From positions 1 to 64,000 of the forward strand of contig JAJYLH010000016.1 in the NCBI GenBank assembly GCA_021787845.1: a DNA stretch of 64,000 nt, read 5' to 3'. Positions 37,741-48,445 of this stretch are shown piece after piece (position 1 is the stretch's first letter; each line of letters starts with the position of its first letter). The position numbers and the translations under genes are program-made. Under the pieces are notes generated by a model. The model saw only the letters and a program-made list of their open reading frames with translations. It was not told where the DNA came from and ran no database searches. Source of the stretch: Myxococcales bacterium. GTDB lineage: Bacteria > Myxococcota > Myxococcia > Myxococcales > JAJYLH01.

Positions 37741-40700
37741 TTAGCGGACCGTGAGCGTCGTCTTGCCGTTCTTGCCTTCGTAGGTCGCTTCCACCTCGCA
37801 CTGGCCGCGACCGGTGAGCTCCACCCAGCCGCTCTCCTGGTGCTGGGGATCGTTCGCGACCACCGCCACCGACGCGTCCGAGGTCGTCCAGAGCGACTGG
37901 GCGGAAACGTCGTTGGTCGTGCCGTCGGAGTAGACCGCCGTCGCGCTGAACTGGACGAACCGCGTGCGCCCGCCCATCGGTCCGCCGCCTTGGAGGTCCT
38001 GAACCGAGTTCGCCGGCGTGACGACGATGAGCTGCAGGGTCGCGTCGGTCACCGTCACCGCTGCCGTACCCTTCACGCCCTGGTAGGTCGCGGTGACCGT
38101 CGTCTGGCCGGGCGAGAGCGCTGTCGCTTCCCCGCGGAAGGAGAGCGCGTTCGACACCGTCAACACCGAGGTGTCGCCGCTCGTCCAGGTGGCGAGGTAC
38201 GTCAGGTCGCGCCGCGAGCCGTCCGAGTAGACGCCGGTCGCGTAGAACGGCCGCATGTCGCCCTGGGCCAGGGTCGCCGACGTCGGCGCGACTTCCATCG
38301 AGGTGAGGGCGGCAGCGGTGACGGTCAGCGTGACCGAGCTCGTCTTGCCCTCGTATTCCGCGGTGACGGAGGTCTGCCCCTGCTTCAGGCAGCGCACGAC
38401 GCCGCCGAGCGTGGGGCCGTTGCCGACGACCGCCACCGAGGTGTCCGCCACGCTCCACGCCGCCTGGTCGCTGATGTCGGCGGGCGCCTGCCAGTTATTC
38501 GAGTAGATGCCGAACGCGCGCAGTTGCAGGACGCCGCCGACCGGACAGCTCGCGTTCTGCCGCCAGCCCCCTCCGGGACCGCCGCCGCCCCCCGGCACCA
38601 CGATCTGGATGTAGGAGAGCGAGCCGTCTTGCACTTGGACGTCGACGCTCGCCGTCACGCTGCCGAGCTGCGCGGTGATGGTGGCGGTGCCGGCGCCGAT
38701 GGCGGTGATCTCGCCGCGGGAGCCAACCGCGTTGGACACGTCGGCCACCTGCGGCGCGCTCGAGGTCCAGGTGGCGAGCGTGGTCGCGTCGGCGATCGAC
38801 CCGTCGGAGTAGGTGGCGATGAGGCCGAGCTGGAAGATGTCGTGCACGGTCAGCCGCGGCACCCGCGTCGGGCGAATGGAGAGCGACACCACCGTCGCGG
38901 TGGTGATGGTCACCGCCTGTTTCGCGGTGATCCCGTCGAACGTCGCCCGCACGTCCGCCGTCCCGGGCGCGAGGAAGGTCGCGTGCCCCGCCTGCGCCGG
39001 CGCGTTCTCGACGGTCAGTAGCGAGGTGTCCGACGACGACCAGGTCGCGACCGGGGTCACGTTCTCCACCGTCCCGTCCTGGAACGTCGCGGTCGCGTGG
39101 AAGTCGAAACCGGTGCCGGCGGGCGCCGCGACGTTCGCCGGCGTCACCTCGAGCTGCACGAGGGGCGCCTGTTCCACCGTCACGAGCTGCTGGCCGGTGA
39201 CGCCTCCCACCGTCGCGCTGATCGTCGCGGTGCCGACGCTGACCGCCGTGACCTGCCCCTTGGACCCAGCGCTGTCGCTCACCGTCGCGACCGCCGGGTT
39301 CGTGCTCGTCCACGTCGCCGTCTCGGTCACCGTGCTGACCGACTTGTCGGAGTAGGTGCCGACCGCGCTGAACGCCCGCCTCGACCCGACGACCAAGGTC
39401 GGCGACGCCGGCAGCACGACGATGCTCGAGAGCGTCGCCGCGTTCACCGTCAGGCTCGTCTGCCCCGTCTTCCCCTCGAACGAGGCGACGATGTTCGTGG
39501 TGCCCGCTTCGAGCGCGCTGGCGACGCCCTTCGACCCGGGAGCGTCGCTGACCGTCGCGACCGCCGAATCCGACGAGCTCCACGACACTTCCCCCGTCAC
39601 GTCGGTCTCGGTTCCGTCGGTGTAGATGGCGGTCGCCCTGTAGCGCACGCTCGCCTGGGTGTCGACCACCAGGCCCTGCGGCGAGAGGGAGATGCGGTCC
39701 AGGTCAGCGGTAGCGTTCTCGGTGAACACGGCCGAGGGAAGGCCGCTCGCGTCCGCGAAGAAGGTCTCCGGGCCCACCTTCGGCCCCAGGGTCGCGGTCG
39801 TCGCCGCGAGCCCGTTCGAGTCGGTGGTCGCGCTCTGGGTGCCGACGCTGCCCCCGTCCGACGTCCGAAAGCCGATGGCGACCCCGGACTTCGGATTGCC
39901 GAGCCGGTCGACCGCCCGGACGGTCAGCTTCTTCGGCAGCGCCGAGCCGGCGAGCGCACTCTGCCCGTCGCCGCCGACGATTTCCAGGTGGTCGGGAGGA
40001 GCAGCGGTGGCGGTCTCCGTGTACGTCGCGGGCGAGCCGAGCGCCCCGGCGAGGGTCGCGACGAACTGCTCCGCGCCTTGCGTCTGCCCCAGGGTCGCGA
40101 TGACGCTCGCCTTGCCGTTCTGGTCGGTCGCGACCGAGAGGGTCGCCGCCGCCGGCGAGGACTGGGTCGCCGCCACCGTCGCCAGGGGGGCTTGAGCGGT
40201 GAAGCTCACCGTCTCGTCGGGCACCGGCTGGCCGAGCCCGTTGGTCACCGTCACTTCCAGCCCCTGCGCGAGCGTTTGCCCGACTTGGGCGGTTTGGCCC
40301 TGCCCGCCGGTGATCTTGAGGAAGAGGGTGTCGACGCTCCCGACCGCGGTCTCGGTGAACGAAGCCGTCGCGCCGCTGTCGGCGGTCGCGGTGAACGACT
40401 GGGTCCCTTCGGCGCTGCCGAGGGTCGCCTGGGTCTGAGCCTGGCCGTTCGCGTCGGTGGTGGTGCTCGCCGGATTCACCGCGCCGTCACCCGGCGCCGC
40501 GAAGGTGATCGGGGCACCCGCGACCGGCTGCCCCATCGAGTCCAGCGCCAGCACCACCAAGGGTGCCGGCAGCGCCACCCCTGGGGCCCCCTGCTGGCCG
40601 TCACCGGCGATGACCTTCAGGAGCGCTACCGGCCGGCGGGTCGCGGTCTCGTCGAAATAGACGGGGCTCCCGACCGCCCCCGCGAGAGACGCGGAGAACT

Positions 40701-42546
40701 GCTGGTGGCCGACCTGGGAGCCCAAGGTCACCGTCGTCGAGGCGAGCCCGCCTGCGATCGCGCTGGTCGCCGGGATCACCGTGCCATCGCCGACGGAGAC
40801 CGCCCATTGCACCACGCCCACGTAGCTTGGCGGCGTCACCTTCACGACGAGCTGCTGCGGGAGCTGGGAGCCCGCGACGCCCGCCTGTCCCCCGCCCGAA
40901 AACGCTTCGATCGTCGGCGTGATGGGGGCGACCGCGGTTCCGGTGATCGTGATCGGCGAGCCGAAGAGCTGCGCGCTCGCCGAGCAGGGCGAAGCTCCGG
41001 GCGCCGGCGCGGCGCAGCGCGTCGACCCGCACGAGCAGGCGCGGAACTGAATGGAGCCGGGAGCGCTGCCGGCGGTCAGCATCGCTTGCGTCAAGCCCGC
41101 CGCGCCGCTCAGCTCGTCCGCTGGCGAAACGGACCCGCTCCCCGCGGTCACCGCCTCGAAGTGGACCGGAATCGTGCCGACCCCGTTCGAATAGGCGTCG
41201 GTCACCCGCACCGAGAAGGCGCCCCCGAACCGGGTGCCGACCGTCGTCGATTGGCCGTCGCCCGCCACCAGCTCCAGGCGCTGGGCCGCGCCGGCCTGCG
41301 CCTGGAGCGCGAAGGTGACCGGCGACCCGGCGAGGTTCGGCGAAGAGCAGGTCACCCGCACGAGCCCCGCGGTCGTCGGCAGCGTGAAGTGAGCGGAAGC
41401 GGTGCCATCCAGCCCGGTCTGGGCATCCGGCGGGGAGGCGAAGGTCCCCCCGTCGGGCGTGGACCAGGTCAAGGTCGCGCCCGGCGCCGGAAAGCCGCCG
41501 GAGTCCAGCGCCTCGACCACCAGCGGCAGCGGAACCGCGGTCCCGACCGGGCCCTTCTGCGCGTCGCCGCTCGAAATCACCAGGCTCGCCGGGGGGCCCG
41601 CGTGCGCCTGGAAATCGAAGGAGGTGGTGACGCTCGGGTCGGCGACCGCCGCGAAGGCGAACGTCTGCGTCCCCGCTGTCGGACCGAGGGTGATCGCGTA
41701 GTCGAGCATCCCGTCAGCGCCGCTGGACGCCGCCTGCGCTGCCGCTGTCGCGCCGGCCGGAGAGGTCACCGCCGCCCGCGCGTCGGGCACCGGGTTGCCC
41801 CAGGCGTCCGCGAAGGAGAGCACCAGCGGATCCGCTATGGGTTGGCCCACCCGCCCGGCGTCCGTGCCGTCGGTCGCCGTCAGCTTGGCCACCGGCCCCG
41901 AGACCACGACGTCGGTGAAGGAAATCGGCTCCAGGCCTCCGCCGCTCGCCGTGGTGATGACCGGCCCGGTCGCGGTCGGGCTCACGGGGTCCGCTTGGGC
42001 GAGACCGCTCGCGTCGGTCACCGACTGCTCGGAGGACCCGCCCGCGGAGGCGAAAGTGACCACCAGGCCGGGAACGCCGGTCCCGTGCGCGTCGACGGCC
42101 TTGGCGACGAGCGGCTCGGGAAGCTTGGTCGCCGGCGGCACCTGTTGGTTGCCGCCGGACATCGCGACCAGCTTGACCGCTGCCGGAGAGCCGTGGGGGA
42201 CGACCGTCACGCTGGCGTCGGCGTGGATGGTCGGGTAGGCGGTCAGGGTCGCGCGCACGTCGACGATCGCCATCGATGCGCCGGCGCCGAGCGCGTCCGG
42301 CGCGGTGTAGATGCCGTCTTGCGTGATGGTTCCGCTCGCCGGGGTCACGACCGACCATCGGACGGCGCTGCCGGCCGGCTCGGTGGTCGCCGTGAACTTC
42401 TGCGAGCGGCCGAGCTCGACGGTGGCGGCGGCCGGCGACAGCGAGACCGCCGGGTGGAGCGGCGCGAACACGTCGGTGCGGGCGCACGAGGCGGCAGCGG
42501 CCAGCGAAAGCAGGAGGACGAGCCGGGAACGGACGCGCGACTTCAT
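37741..42546 (-). CDS. Very large Ig-like-repeat (Big_1/Big_2) lipoprotein
   Basis: A 1601-residue surface lipoprotein. Signal residues 1-22 end at AAAASC. The N-terminal two-thirds is a string of Big_1/invasin-like units with a recurrent VSGDGQ-type opening (LVAGDGQSTTVGT, VIAGDGQQGAPGV, IVGGDGQSALAGS). The C-terminal third is Big_2 units ending in TWTSSxPxVATVS patterns and GxATITA. Such repeats form long rigid stalks. ATG 42546 follows GGAGGT; the frame opens a little earlier. It is the first gene of a minus-strand set of exported proteins, directly before the OmpA-type barrel, suggesting a display or adhesion function. Confidence 0.87.
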   Translation of the reverse strand: MKSRVRSRLVLLLSLAAAASCARTDVFAPLHPAVSLSPAAATVELGRSQKFTATTEPAGSAVRWSVVTPASGTITQDGIYTAPDALGAGASMAIVDVRATLTAYPTIHADASVTVVPHGSPAAVKLVAMSGGNQQVPPATKLPEPLVAKAVDAHGTGVPGLVVTFASAGGSSEQSVTDASGLAQADPVSPTATGPVITTASGGGLEPISFTDVVVSGPVAKLTATDGTDAGRVGQPIADPLVLSFADAWGNPVPDARAAVTSPAGATAAAQAASSGADGMLDYAITLGPTAGTQTFAFAAVADPSVTTSFDFQAHAGPPASLVISSGDAQKGPVGTAVPLPLVVEALDSGGFPAPGATLTWSTPDGGTFASPPDAQTGLDGTASAHFTLPTTAGLVRVTCSSPNLAGSPVTFALQAQAGAAQRLELVAGDGQSTTVGTRFGGAFSVRVTDAYSNGVGTIPVHFEAVTAGSGSVSPADELSGAAGLTQAMLTAGSAPGSIQFRACSCGSTRCAAPAPGASPCSASAQLFGSPITITGTAVAPITPTIEAFSGGGQAGVAGSQLPQQLVVKVTPPSYVGVVQWAVSVGDGTVIPATSAIAGGLASTTVTLGSQVGHQQFSASLAGAVGSPVYFDETATRRPVALLKVIAGDGQQGAPGVALPAPLVVLALDSMGQPVAGAPITFAAPGDGAVNPASTTTDANGQAQTQATLGSAEGTQSFTATADSGATASFTETAVGSVDTLFLKITGGQGQTAQVGQTLAQGLEVTVTNGLGQPVPDETVSFTAQAPLATVAATQSSPAAATLSVATDQNGKASVIATLGQTQGAEQFVATLAGALGSPATYTETATAAPPDHLEIVGGDGQSALAGSALPKKLTVRAVDRLGNPKSGVAIGFRTSDGGSVGTQSATTDSNGLAATTATLGPKVGPETFFADASGLPSAVFTENATADLDRISLSPQGLVVDTQASVRYRATAIYTDGTETDVTGEVSWSSSDSAVATVSDAPGSKGVASALEAGTTNIVASFEGKTGQTSLTVNAATLSSIVVLPASPTLVVGSRRAFSAVGTYSDKSVSTVTETATWTSTNPAVATVSDSAGSKGQVTAVSVGTATISATVGGVTGQQLVTVEQAPLVQLEVTPANVAAPAGTGFDFHATATFQDGTVENVTPVATWSSSDTSLLTVENAPAQAGHATFLAPGTADVRATFDGITAKQAVTITTATVVSLSIRPTRVPRLTVHDIFQLGLIATYSDGSIADATTLATWTSSAPQVADVSNAVGSRGEITAIGAGTATITAQLGSVTASVDVQVQDGSLSYIQIVVPGGGGGPGGGWRQNASCPVGGVLQLRAFGIYSNNWQAPADISDQAAWSVADTSVAVVGNGPTLGGVVRCLKQGQTSVTAEYEGKTSSVTLTVTAAALTSMEVAPTSATLAQGDMRPFYATGVYSDGSRRDLTYLATWTSGDTSVLTVSNALSFRGEATALSPGQTTVTATYQGVKGTAAVTVTDATLQLIVVTPANSVQDLQGGGPMGGRTRFVQFSATAVYSDGTTNDVSAQSLWTTSDASVAVVANDPQHQESGWVELTGRGQCEVEATYEGKNGKTTLTVR

Positions 42547-42731
42547 CTTGGGACCTCCCGCGCCGGGGACCCGGCGTTTTAGCACGGAAGCCGGCGCTGG
42601 CCGGCCTGGGCTCAGGCGGCCGCGCGACCCCCGGCTCGATGGGCTATGGACACGCGTCTGGCTTCCCGGTGCAAGTCCGGGGCGGAGCGCGCCAGCATCG
42701 GCGTTTGTTCCGGGACGGGGAGAAAGATCGA

Positions 42732-43995: not shown

Positions 43996-45873
43996 ATGCC
44001 ATCGACCCCCATCTACTTCGCCGCCGACGAGAAGCTTCTCGCGGCGCTCGCCGAACCCCTGCGCCGCAGCGGGCTCGAGCTCGAGACCTTCCCGTCCCTG
44101 GTCGCCCTGCGCGCCGCCTTCGACCGGGAGCTCCCAGGAGCGCTCCTGCTCGGCGCCAGGCTCTCCGACAGCACCGCGTACGCGGCCTTGAAGTCGCTTT
44201 CCGGTCCCCGCCACGTCCCGACGCTGGTCATTGTCGGGGAAAGCCAGCTCGACCACCGGGGCCAGGCGCTGCGACTGGGCTTCGCGGACGTCGCCCCCTC
44301 GCCCCTCAAGCCGCGCGTTCTGGCGTCCAGGCTCCAGGAGCTCGCCGGCACCGCTTCGGGTGAGCAGACGCGCGCGAGCGCCACCGGCACGGTGGTCGTG
44401 AAGACGGATGACGCGGCGCGCGAGGCGGAGGTGATCGAGGCTGGCGAGCAGACGCTGCTCGTCAGGCTTTCGCCGGCACTGACGGAGGACGACCTGGTCG
44501 AGCTCGTCTTCGGGCGCGGCGCGCAGGCGCCGCTATCGCTGTTCGGGCGGGTCCTGACGAGCACCGTGTCTTTCGAGGGCTCGGAGGCGACCCTGCGGCT
44601 CTTGGCCATGACGCCCGAGGAGACGGCAGCGCTCCGGGAGATCGTCCGCCCGCCGCAACCGCCGCCCGCGCCGGCGGACCTGGAGGCGGAGGCGGCGGAC
44701 GGCTGGCCGGCGGGAACGGTCGAAGCCTCCCGCTTCGAGCCGGTGATTCCCGACTTCGACGCCGAGCCCGAGCAGGGCGAGAGCGCTTCCGTTCTGGCGG
44801 AGACGAGCGGTTCCGCGGCAGCGGTCGAGCCGGGCGCCGACGTGTCTCCGGCGCCAGTGACGGCCGCGGCGGCCCCGCCGGCGAGCGCCGAGCCGGAGCG
44901 GCTTTGCTGGCCGGCGGCGCCAGAGCCCCTCGACGCCTGTGTGGAAGCGGTCGCGCGCTTCTTGTCCGCGGGTGACGCCCCCGGGGAGGGCTCGAGCCTT
45001 CCGACGCCCCTCGAGAGCGCCGCCGAACAGATTGCCCGCCAGCTCGGTGACTTCGAGCGGCGGGCGTTCCAGATGCTCCGGGGCGAGCCCGAGGACTCTG
45101 CGGGAGCGCTGCCGGAGTCCGCACCGAAGGGGCCCCCGCCAGAAGCGCCAGTCGCCGCGGAGGCCCCGCCGCCCGCGGAGGGCGGCTCGGTGCTGGCGCC
45201 GGCGGAGCGGGCCGAGCCGAGCGATGCGAAGGATCTGACGTCGTTCGCTGCGTCGCTGGAGAATCTGGCGCTCGAGCCGCCGGCGGGAACGCCGGCGGTC
45301 CCGGCAACCGAAGAGGCGCCCGCGGCGCCGCCGACCGAGCCACCCATACCAGCGGCAGCGGACAAGGGCCTCGACGCCGGTGTTGCTCGGCAGCTTCGCG
45401 AAGGTGCCGGACACCGGGCCCGGGTGCTGGTCGCGGTCACCTCCGGTCGCGCCCTGGCCGACGCGGCGGACCCGAGCGCCCCGCGTGCGCGGGTCGAGCA
45501 CGACCGCGTCACCGCGCTCGCCGCCGACGCCGAGACCTGGACCGCCGCCCTGAATCCGGTGGCTGATTCCGCCGTGGCCGCCGGAGACCTGCCCCTGCTC
45601 GTCGATCTGAACGGCGCCAAGGACGCGCTCTCCAGGTTGGCGGGGGAGCTGCGCGAGCTCGAGGAGCGGCTCGGCCAGGAACGCGACGGGGCGTCTGCCA
45701 CGACCGAGGGGCTCGCCGAGCCCGAGGGAACAGCGGCTGCGCCGGCGACCGGCGCGACGCCGAACGCTCCCGCTTCGAAGCCGGCGCCGAAGAGCTCCGC
45801 GGGGCTCGTCTGGGCGGTGGCGTTCCTCTTGGCGCTCGCCGTCGCCGTCGTCGTCTGGCGCTTCGTGCGTTGA
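43996..45873 (+). CDS. Receiver-like/PilZ-like protein with C-terminal membrane anchor
   Basis: A 625-residue protein. Residues 1-115 resemble a response-regulator receiver fold (IYFAADEKLLAALAEPLRR, HVPTLVIVGE, LGFADVAPSPLKPRVLASRL) but the acidic pocket and phospho-Asp are not clear, so it may be a pseudo-receiver. Residues about 125-215 look PilZ-like (LLVRLSPALTEDDLVELVF, GRVLTSTVSFEGS, MTPEETAALREIV). A long Ala/Pro/Glu-rich disordered region of about 360 residues follows, ending in a single membrane helix (LVWAVAFLLALAVAVVVWRF). It lies just before the PilZ-Hsp70 gene on the same strand. Function unknown. Confidence 0.65.
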   Translation: MPSTPIYFAADEKLLAALAEPLRRSGLELETFPSLVALRAAFDRELPGALLLGARLSDSTAYAALKSLSGPRHVPTLVIVGESQLDHRGQALRLGFADVAPSPLKPRVLASRLQELAGTASGEQTRASATGTVVVKTDDAAREAEVIEAGEQTLLVRLSPALTEDDLVELVFGRGAQAPLSLFGRVLTSTVSFEGSEATLRLLAMTPEETAALREIVRPPQPPPAPADLEAEAADGWPAGTVEASRFEPVIPDFDAEPEQGESASVLAETSGSAAAVEPGADVSPAPVTAAAAPPASAEPERLCWPAAPEPLDACVEAVARFLSAGDAPGEGSSLPTPLESAAEQIARQLGDFERRAFQMLRGEPEDSAGALPESAPKGPPPEAPVAAEAPPPAEGGSVLAPAERAEPSDAKDLTSFAASLENLALEPPAGTPAVPATEEAPAAPPTEPPIPAAADKGLDAGVARQLREGAGHRARVLVAVTSGRALADAADPSAPRARVEHDRVTALAADAETWTAALNPVADSAVAAGDLPLLVDLNGAKDALSRLAGELRELEERLGQERDGASATTEGLAEPEGTAAAPATGATPNAPASKPAPKSSAGLVWAVAFLLALAVAVVVWRFVR

Positions 45874-46270: not shown

Positions 46271-48445
46271 TTGGCGTGGGACTCTTCCCAGCGGCACGGC
46301 CCGCGGCCCGACGCGCTCAAGATGCGTCTCGCGTTCGCGACCGAGCGCGAGTTCGTCGAGCGCTTCGGCCAGAACGTGACCGCGACCGGCCTGTTCGTCC
46401 GGTCGCGCGATCCGCGTCCGCTCGGGACGCGGCTGTCCTTCGAGATCACCCTGCGAGGCGGCGAGGCGGCGCTCAGCGGTAGCGGTGTCGTTCGGTACGT
46501 GCGGGCGGCGGGAACGGGCGCCGACCCTGCCGGGATGGGGCTCGAGGTCGGCGAGCTCGGCGTCGAAAGCCAGCGACTCGTCGCGGCGATTGTGGCCGAG
46601 CGCGCCGCCGGGCGCCTTGCCGCACCGGTGCCGGGGGCCTCCGCGGAAGACTGGCCCCCGCTCGTGGTGACCGCGCCGCCGGCGGAGGAGCCGAACGCTG
46701 GCCGGTCCGCCGCCGCCTCGCCGGTCCTGAAAGCCCGCTCCCTCGAACCGCTGGCTCCCGAAGCGGGGGAGGCGACCCCGCTGATGATGGCTTCCCTCGG
46801 CCTGAGGCCGGCGCCGTCACCGGTCCAGCCGGAGCCGGTGGAGAAGACGGAACGGCTCTTCGGCCCTTTGGCCGCCACGCTGAAGCGGGCCTCGCCGGCG
46901 TCGGGCGATGATCGCCGCTTGGCGCGGGCTCCGTCCCGAGCGCCGCCCGTGATGACACCGGCGAGCGCCACGCCCACGCCGGCGCCGTCGATGGCGGCGC
47001 CCGTGATCGGCCTCGAGCTCGACTGGGGCTCGGTGCGGGCGGCCGTGCGCGAGGACCGCCGGGCGTGCCTGGTGCCCCTGGAGGAAGGCGGGGCGATGCC
47101 GGCGTGCGTCGCGGAGGACGGGGGCGGGCTCGTCTACGGCCGCGCGGCGGAGGAAGCGCTCGCGGCCGGGGCTCCCGGAGCGCGCGGGCTGTTCAGCCTC
47201 CTCGGGGCGTGGCCGAAGACCCGGGCGATCGATCCGTTCGAGCGCCGGGAGCTGACGCACGCGGTCGCCGCGGCGGGGGGAATGGCAGGGCTCCTGCTCG
47301 CCGGTCGCGTGCGTAGCGGTAGCGCTCTCGTGGAGAGTCTCCTCAGGGAAGTTCGTGCGCGCGCCTCCGAGGCTCTGGGCGTCGAAGTGACCCGGGCGGC
47401 GTTGGCGTTGCCGTCGGCGGTCTCGGCGGTGGCGCGCAAGGAGCTCCGGGAAGCGGCGCGACGCGCCGGGCTGGTGGTCGAACGAACGGTGCCGTCGCCG
47501 CTGGCGCTCGCGGCAGGGCGGCGGGAGAAGCGCCTGCTCGTGCTCGACTTGGAAGAGGGGGGCATCGAGGCGGCGGTGGTCGAGTCCGGGTCGCTGGTGG
47601 CAACCGCGTCGGCCCCGGAGGTGGGCGGCGTGGACGTCGACCTGGGGCTGGTCGCAGCCCTGCTGTCGGACTTCGAGGAGCGGGCCGAGGTGGCGGTGCC
47701 GGAAGACGCGGCGCTGTTCCACCGGGTTCGCCAGGCCGCGGCGGTCGCCCGGACGCAGCTTTCGAAAGCGTTGGAAACCGAGGTGGTGGTCCCGGACCTG
47801 ATGACGACGGGGCTGGCGAAGGCGGAGCTGCGGGAACGGCTGACGCGGGCGCGGTTGCACGCGATCGCGGCGCCGGTGATCGAGCGGGCCGCGCGGCTCG
47901 TGCAGGAAGTGCTCGGCGGCCTGGGCTGGGGGTCCGGGGAGGTGGATGCGCTCCTGCTCGGCGGGGCGGCGGGAAGGTGGCCCGTGGTCGCGCACCTCTT
48001 GGGGCAGCGGCTGGCGATGGACGTGACGGCGGTGCCGGAGAGCGCGGCTTTGGGGGCGGCGCTCCTGGGGGACGGTCCTCGGCCCGGCGGAGCGGCGGCG
48101 CTGGGCGCGACGGTGTGGGCACGGCTGGAAGGAGCGAGCCCGCGGCGGTTGGTCGAGCGGGGTACGCCTCTGCCCGCCGAGCGGACCTACGCGGCGCTCC
48201 AGGTGCGCCCGGCCGACCGGGAGATCTCACTCCAGCTCCTCCAGGGCGACCGCGGTCGGCCGGAGGACAACGACTTCCTGGGCGTGGCGAGAGCAGGACC
48301 GCTACCGGCGGGCAGGGGAACAGTTCAGGTGACTTTCACCATCGTCCTCGACGCCGCCGGCGAGCTGGCGGTGGGCGCGCGCGAGACATCGACCGGACGC
48401 CTGGTCCCGGTGCGATTCGAAGCCCAGCCGCCGCCGTCAGCGTAG
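46271..48445 (+). CDS. PilZ-like domain fused to a degenerate-ATPase Hsp70
   Basis: A 724-residue fusion. Residues about 18-115 are PilZ-like (TIGR02266-type: MRLAFATEREFVERFGQNVT, then TGLFVRS and SGSGVVRYVRA). An Ala/Pro-rich linker runs to about 240. Residues about 244-595 keep the Hsp70 nucleotide-domain order, but phosphate-1 is GLELDWGSVRAAV and phosphate-2 is VLDLEEGGIEAAVV, both lacking the Gly/Thr residues needed for ATP. The adenosine motif ALLLGGAAGRWPVV remains. Residues about 615-715 are a well-kept DnaK substrate-binding beta domain (ISLQLLQGDRGRPEDNDFLG, VQVTFTIVLDAAGELAV); the helical lid is missing. TTG 46271 follows GGGAG. Confidence 0.75.
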   Translation: MAWDSSQRHGPRPDALKMRLAFATEREFVERFGQNVTATGLFVRSRDPRPLGTRLSFEITLRGGEAALSGSGVVRYVRAAGTGADPAGMGLEVGELGVESQRLVAAIVAERAAGRLAAPVPGASAEDWPPLVVTAPPAEEPNAGRSAAASPVLKARSLEPLAPEAGEATPLMMASLGLRPAPSPVQPEPVEKTERLFGPLAATLKRASPASGDDRRLARAPSRAPPVMTPASATPTPAPSMAAPVIGLELDWGSVRAAVREDRRACLVPLEEGGAMPACVAEDGGGLVYGRAAEEALAAGAPGARGLFSLLGAWPKTRAIDPFERRELTHAVAAAGGMAGLLLAGRVRSGSALVESLLREVRARASEALGVEVTRAALALPSAVSAVARKELREAARRAGLVVERTVPSPLALAAGRREKRLLVLDLEEGGIEAAVVESGSLVATASAPEVGGVDVDLGLVAALLSDFEERAEVAVPEDAALFHRVRQAAAVARTQLSKALETEVVVPDLMTTGLAKAELRERLTRARLHAIAAPVIERAARLVQEVLGGLGWGSGEVDALLLGGAAGRWPVVAHLLGQRLAMDVTAVPESAALGAALLGDGPRPGGAAALGATVWARLEGASPRRLVERGTPLPAERTYAALQVRPADREISLQLLQGDRGRPEDNDFLGVARAGPLPAGRGTVQVTFTIVLDAAGELAVGARETSTGRLVPVRFEAQPPPSA

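Follow-up and report, generated by a model that had tools for sequence, protein, structure and literature searches.

A PilZ-Hsp70 protein with a predicted dead ATP site in a Myxococcales bacterium

A gene of a Myxococcales bacterium encodes a 724-aa protein in which an N-terminal PilZ domain is followed by an Hsp70 whose ATP site appears dead. It occupies 46271..48445 on the + strand of the window, the whole 64,000-nucleotide stretch of DNA that was analyzed. As read from sequence, the residues for ATP binding and hydrolysis have been lost along with the linker by which client binding responds to the ATP state, while PilZ, the fold of the nucleotide-binding domain (NBD) and the β part of the substrate-binding domain (SBD-β) remain. 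Our best explanation is that the protein is a strongly diverged myxobacterial PilZ-DnaK (CsdK-like), the Hsp70 half of which is now a pseudo-ATPase that acts without ATP as a low-affinity binder of clients or as a scaffold, possibly under the control of c-di-GMP. We consider this explanation about evenly poised between right and wrong.

The Hsp70 cycle requires K70, E171, T199, the phosphate loops and the interdomain linker. ATP sites were scored at 25 positions (nucleotide-contacting residues and signature loops) with E. coli DnaK as the reference. The 724-aa protein keeps 8 of the 25. The seven other Hsp70s found in the same genome keep 22–24, and two rows with scores of 17 and 20, neither of them a PilZ-Hsp70, lack part of their N-terminal sequence. 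The PilZ-Hsp70 set contains 71 rows, or 65 distinct proteins with the 724-aa protein included, and the ATP site is essentially intact (21–24 of 25) in all the others but one, L159 (16/25). The first-pass annotation had inferred a noncycling scaffold, which fails for the fusion as such, since the loops are intact in nearly all other members. The fusion itself recurs in 64 further proteins, but the missing loop residues are not shared. Apart from one partial parallel in L159, the predicted dead ATPase is peculiar to the 724-aa protein.

Where its relatives carry GIDLGTTNSC and VYDLGGGTFDASV, the protein has GLELDWGSVR and VLDLEEGGIEAAV. The degenerate phosphate-1 loop (GLELDWGSVR) is located at 47009..47038 (+), and the degenerate phosphate-2 loop (VLDLEEGGIEA; VYDLGGGTFDA in relatives) at 47540..47572 (+). 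Between them, the E171 segment at 47480..47509 (+) reads ERTVPSP-LAL with four residues deleted, as opposed to ERILNEPTAAALA in relatives. The interdomain linker is replaced and shortened at 48068..48109 (+), keeping 1 of 5 conserved positions of VVLIDVLPM in relatives. Degenerate phosphate loops in an Hsp70 of usual domain order had been noticed in the first pass, and the alignment confirms them with losses exceeding those listed then: K70, the NEPTAA segment (E171), part of the adenosine loop and the VLIDV-type linker are lost too. In all, the equivalents of T11, T12, K70, E171, G196, G197, T199 and D201 are gone, and that of D8 is E. The low score (8/25 vs 21–24/25), the E171 deletion and the linker loss favor the pseudo-ATPase reading, and the alignment strongly supports that the ATPase site is lost.

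The NBD fold (residues 245–602; 47003..48076, +) was assigned from an AlphaFold2 (AF2) model, a fold match and residue scoring. The Hsp70 part matches Pfam HSP70 (1.6e-30), TIGR02350 (1.8e-39) and a DnaK chain (1.8e-32), and its NBD and SBD follow PilZ in one polypeptide in the customary Hsp70 arrangement. In the full-length model (mean pLDDT 73), this part is predicted with the Hsp70 fold, and the NBD fold is complete.

An unusual mode of nucleotide binding could persist in this fold as a slow or ligand-gated switch. D426 (DnaK D194), G452-G453 and parts of the adenosine loop are still there, and the AF2 model is closest to the domain-docked ATP state of DnaK, though aligned intact relatives bias the model. 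Moreover, yeast Ssz1 binds ATP without hydrolysis (PMC7083937). However, with D8 changed to E, the listed equivalents missing, the E171 segment deleted and the linker lost, such a switch seems very unlikely. We also considered whether the ATP site has eroded preferentially over the rest of the NBD. Family-conserved positions are kept at 22/57 in the ATP motifs vs 50/102 elsewhere in the NBD, which is in the expected direction yet not significant (p = 0.25). In the intact divergent members L107, L123 and L127, ATP motifs are better preserved than other NBD positions, but in the 724-aa protein they are not. Nor do its kept fractions differ significantly anywhere else within the Hsp70 part, the SBD (16/29) included.

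The PilZ domain (residues 14–112; 46310..46606, +), a β barrel with a C-terminal helix, was identified with TIGR02266, AF2 and Foldseek. When the N-terminus is scanned alone, TIGR02266 scores 69.7 bits (E 1.8e-19) against a cut-off of 68.7, and the score is 64.2 bits when the whole protein is scanned. The Pfam PilZ match to the N-terminus is weak (16–20 bits; cut-off 22.5). The AF2 model of residues 1–130 has a mean pLDDT of 84, and its top PDB fold matches are Xanthomonas PilZ proteins (E 3.6e-5). The N-terminus is thus PilZ-like, as had been proposed, rather than of an unrelated fold. It shares its domain family and predicted fold with the Xanthomonas type IV pilus PilZ proteins (7lkm, 4fou and 3dsg, the last with a title that speaks of trivial c-di-GMP binding), but these solved proteins are stand-alone, whereas here PilZ is fused and both motif halves are modified.

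The first half of the c-di-GMP-type motif is R8xxxR12 (RHGPR; 46292..46306, +), aligned with RRDPR/RREPR of relatives but closer to strand 1 than in them, and its presence hinges on the TTG start. The second half is N35xT37xxG40 (NVTATG; 46373..46390, +), aligned with NxSxxG of relatives, with T replacing S. The same replacement is found in L053, where that half otherwise looks intact. A putative c-di-GMP-type motif with both halves in modified form is therefore plausible. The T for S and the dependence of the first half on the TTG start weaken the c-di-GMP part of our explanation.

The architecture, which had been taken as undescribed and which we reject as new, was published in 2023 for the PilZ-DnaK chaperones CsdK1 (MXAN_3778) and CsdK2 (MXAN_6605) of Myxococcus xanthus (Seidel et al. 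2023, PMC10313047). They share with the 724-aa protein the order of N-terminal PilZ, linker, NBD and SBD. CsdK-type NBDs are intact (24/25) with a coupling linker and a GWLKGLFGR-type tail, whereas the 724-aa protein has lost ATP site, linker and tail. As assigned by motif and not by locus tag, L053 lacks RxxxR like CsdK1, and L117–L121 have RTTDR, RTSDR or KTDR-type starts with NLSPGG/NISPGG like CsdK2 (PMC10313047). In these M. xanthus and Myxococcaceae relatives (L053, L117–L121), SBD-β is followed by a tail with no helical lid. CsdK2 contacts its client CdbS by the DnaK part, not PilZ, and mutation of its c-di-GMP site left CdbS binding unaltered (PMC10313047), which tempers the c-di-GMP reading. 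That control of client binding has shifted from ATP to c-di-GMP, with PilZ instead of the ATP cycle switching a lidless SBD, is unlikely.

PilZ is joined to the Hsp70 part by a linker (residues 113–244; 46607..47002, +) with pLDDT below 50 and predicted disorder from 132 to 240. Divergence differs between the domains that it separates. Identity of the 724-aa protein to relatives is 25–44% in PilZ, 25–33% in the NBD and 19–38% in the SBD, and PilZ keeps 9/12 family-conserved positions. When L012 is compared with more distant lineages, PilZ is usually the least conserved (28–51%), vs 45–69% in the NBD and 33–60% in the SBD. Judging from these domain identities, constraint on the Hsp70 part has been relaxed or changed, most in the NBD, and constraint on PilZ is unchanged. 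The PilZ identity reaching 44%, the intact predicted fold and the presence of both motif halves favor our best explanation. It is weakened by the restriction to one genome, the SBD divergence and the lack of ATP-site erosion significantly beyond that of the NBD.

SBD-β (residues 614–717; 48110..48421, +) was delimited by the AF2 model, alignment and conserved positions. The chain stops directly after it, lacking both the helical lid (SBD-α) and the C-terminal tail of the family. An SBD-β without a lid had been noted before and is indeed present, but its description as well kept needs qualifying, since 16/29 family-conserved positions are kept at the low identity given above. Because of this divergence, client binding is not assured. 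The lid is absent in other aligned PilZ-DnaKs as well, and lidlessness is a family trait, not a peculiarity of this protein. In most PilZ-Hsp70s (e.g., L017, L072, L117), the place of the lid is taken by a stretch rich in Pro and Ala and then a short tail of basic and hydrophobic residues. By a strict pattern, the GWLKGLFGR-type tail occurs in 48/71 rows, and it is absent from the 724-aa protein and the L123/L163/L159 group.

Alternatively, the Hsp70 half could be a folded platform for partner proteins, e.g., in pairing with L002, serving as a scaffold or regulator that has no peptide clients and leaves the SBD groove unused. The SBD has diverged about as far as the NBD, the coupling linker and the family tail are lost with the fold kept, and L159, a PilZ-Hsp70 of another family, does without any SBD. 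On the other hand, SBD-β is of full length with its L/G/P core positions present and no disruptive indels, which would be superfluous for a pure NBD scaffold. This alternative is possible but clearly less probable than low-affinity client binding by a pseudo-ATPase.

The best full-length matches in the order and the phylum are PilZ-DnaKs with about 31–35% identity. Scanning a species-level contig collection with the 724-aa query gave no relative, and a second scan, for which the query was L021, a related protein, retrieved named PilZ-DnaKs of myxobacteria, including L053 of M. xanthus AM003. Relatives with intact loops characterize the family, but neither a one-to-one orthologue nor an orthologue with the same ATP-site loss was found in a sample of the genomes of the order, the phylum searches and the contig collection. 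The predicted dead-ATPase PilZ-Hsp70 is based on one genome, the sole representative of its taxonomic family in the set searched. Two trees of the Hsp70 part place the protein inside the PilZ-Hsp70 set, with L123 and L127 close by and a branch length of 4.3–5.0 changes per column. Its exact place is unsure because this branch is very long.

Nearest in the trees (support 58–92) are the PilZ-Hsp70s of family f9 (L123, L158/L163, L159), which come from the same taxonomic order and, like the 724-aa protein, have no C-terminal tail. They also resemble it in short stretches (LGAT, TPLPAER, DFLG) that lie downstream of phosphate-1 and within the SBD. No f9 member has RxxxR, and L123 and L163 differ from the 724-aa protein by intact ATP sites (21–22/25) and a short linker. 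L159 (1524-3008, −; 495 aa) has a partly eroded ATP site (GTEG, SETAATA, GAGTFS) and no SBD. Elsewhere, L164 (514-3030, +; 839 aa), from a genome of family f3, joins a Ser/Thr kinase to a PilZ domain of the TIGR02266 type and an Hsp70 NBD, with no SBD. The fusion also extends beyond Myxococcota, as L107 is a PilZ-Hsp70 encoded in a MAG of the Oligoflexia (Bdellovibrionota).

The gene starts with TTG, the first ATG/GTG/TTG past the preceding in-frame stop, and GGGAG 8 nt upstream fits this start. Because the GC content makes chance long open frames common here, the openness of the 724-codon frame is weak evidence by itself, but the frame is backed by homology and by codon-position GC (0.80/0.58/0.88), which is uniform over the gene length and resembles that of neighboring genes. 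The gene contains no stop or frameshift, and no canonical Hsp70 loop exists in other reading frames of 46271-48445, ruling out a frameshift that conceals intact ATP loops.

Could the gene be a decaying, functionless relic or an assembly artifact? It comes from a single draft genome (153 contigs), with no orthologue found, a very long branch and no conserved neighborhood, as six window genes have no match in the flanks of relatives' loci. However, even codon-position bias and the intact predicted fold argue against a pseudogene, PilZ is conserved as in functional members, and a neutral gene at 4–5 changes per column should teem with stops and indels. A dead gene would hardly stay open over such a branch, making a relic or artifact quite unlikely.

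Upstream of the gene lies an orphan (window 43996-45873, +; 625 aa) with a weakly receiver-like N-terminus (Response_reg E 0.01), seemingly lacking the phospho-acceptor Asp, and with hydrophobic residues clustered near the C-terminus. A search of 59 further genomes from the order gave no homologue of it. Window 37741-42585 (−) encodes a 1614-aa protein with bacterial Ig-like Big_1 and Big_2 repeats.

By comparison of features, Ssz1 appears to be the closest functional analogue, not of the same family. It is a lidless, nonhydrolyzing yeast Hsp70 that binds substrate via SBD-β (PMC7083937), and its structure 6sr6 is among the Foldseek matches of the AF2 model. Like the 724-aa protein, it has an altered linker and no lid, and it cannot run an ATP cycle. 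Unlike the 724-aa protein, it is eukaryotic, binds ATP, lacks PilZ and acts together with Zuo1 in the ribosome-associated complex. In DnaK, absence of the lid speeds up both binding and release of peptide and makes binding weaker (as cited in PMC7083937). If the pseudo-ATPase reading is right, the NBD would have turned into a structural platform with no ATP cycle, and SBD-β would, like that of Ssz1, bind peptides or one fixed partner with low strength and no release driven by ATP. PilZ, on its tether of about 130 mostly disordered residues, could provide c-di-GMP input or docking to a partner. The protein may hold a client or help L002, the intact PilZ-DnaK of the same genome.

The fusion dates from 2023 in the literature, but a PilZ-Hsp70 whose ATP site is predicted to be dead is new as far as we searched. 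A nonexhaustive search of the open-access literature gave no account of an ATP-dead bacterial DnaK or a bacterial pseudo-Hsp70. Together with the partly eroded L159, the 724-aa protein suggests that loss of the cycle is tolerated among PilZ-Hsp70s. A family in which many members are intact and one is catalytically dead, all carrying a second-messenger domain, would permit a direct test of the need for the Hsp70 ATP cycle and of the ability of a c-di-GMP domain to control binding by a chaperone.
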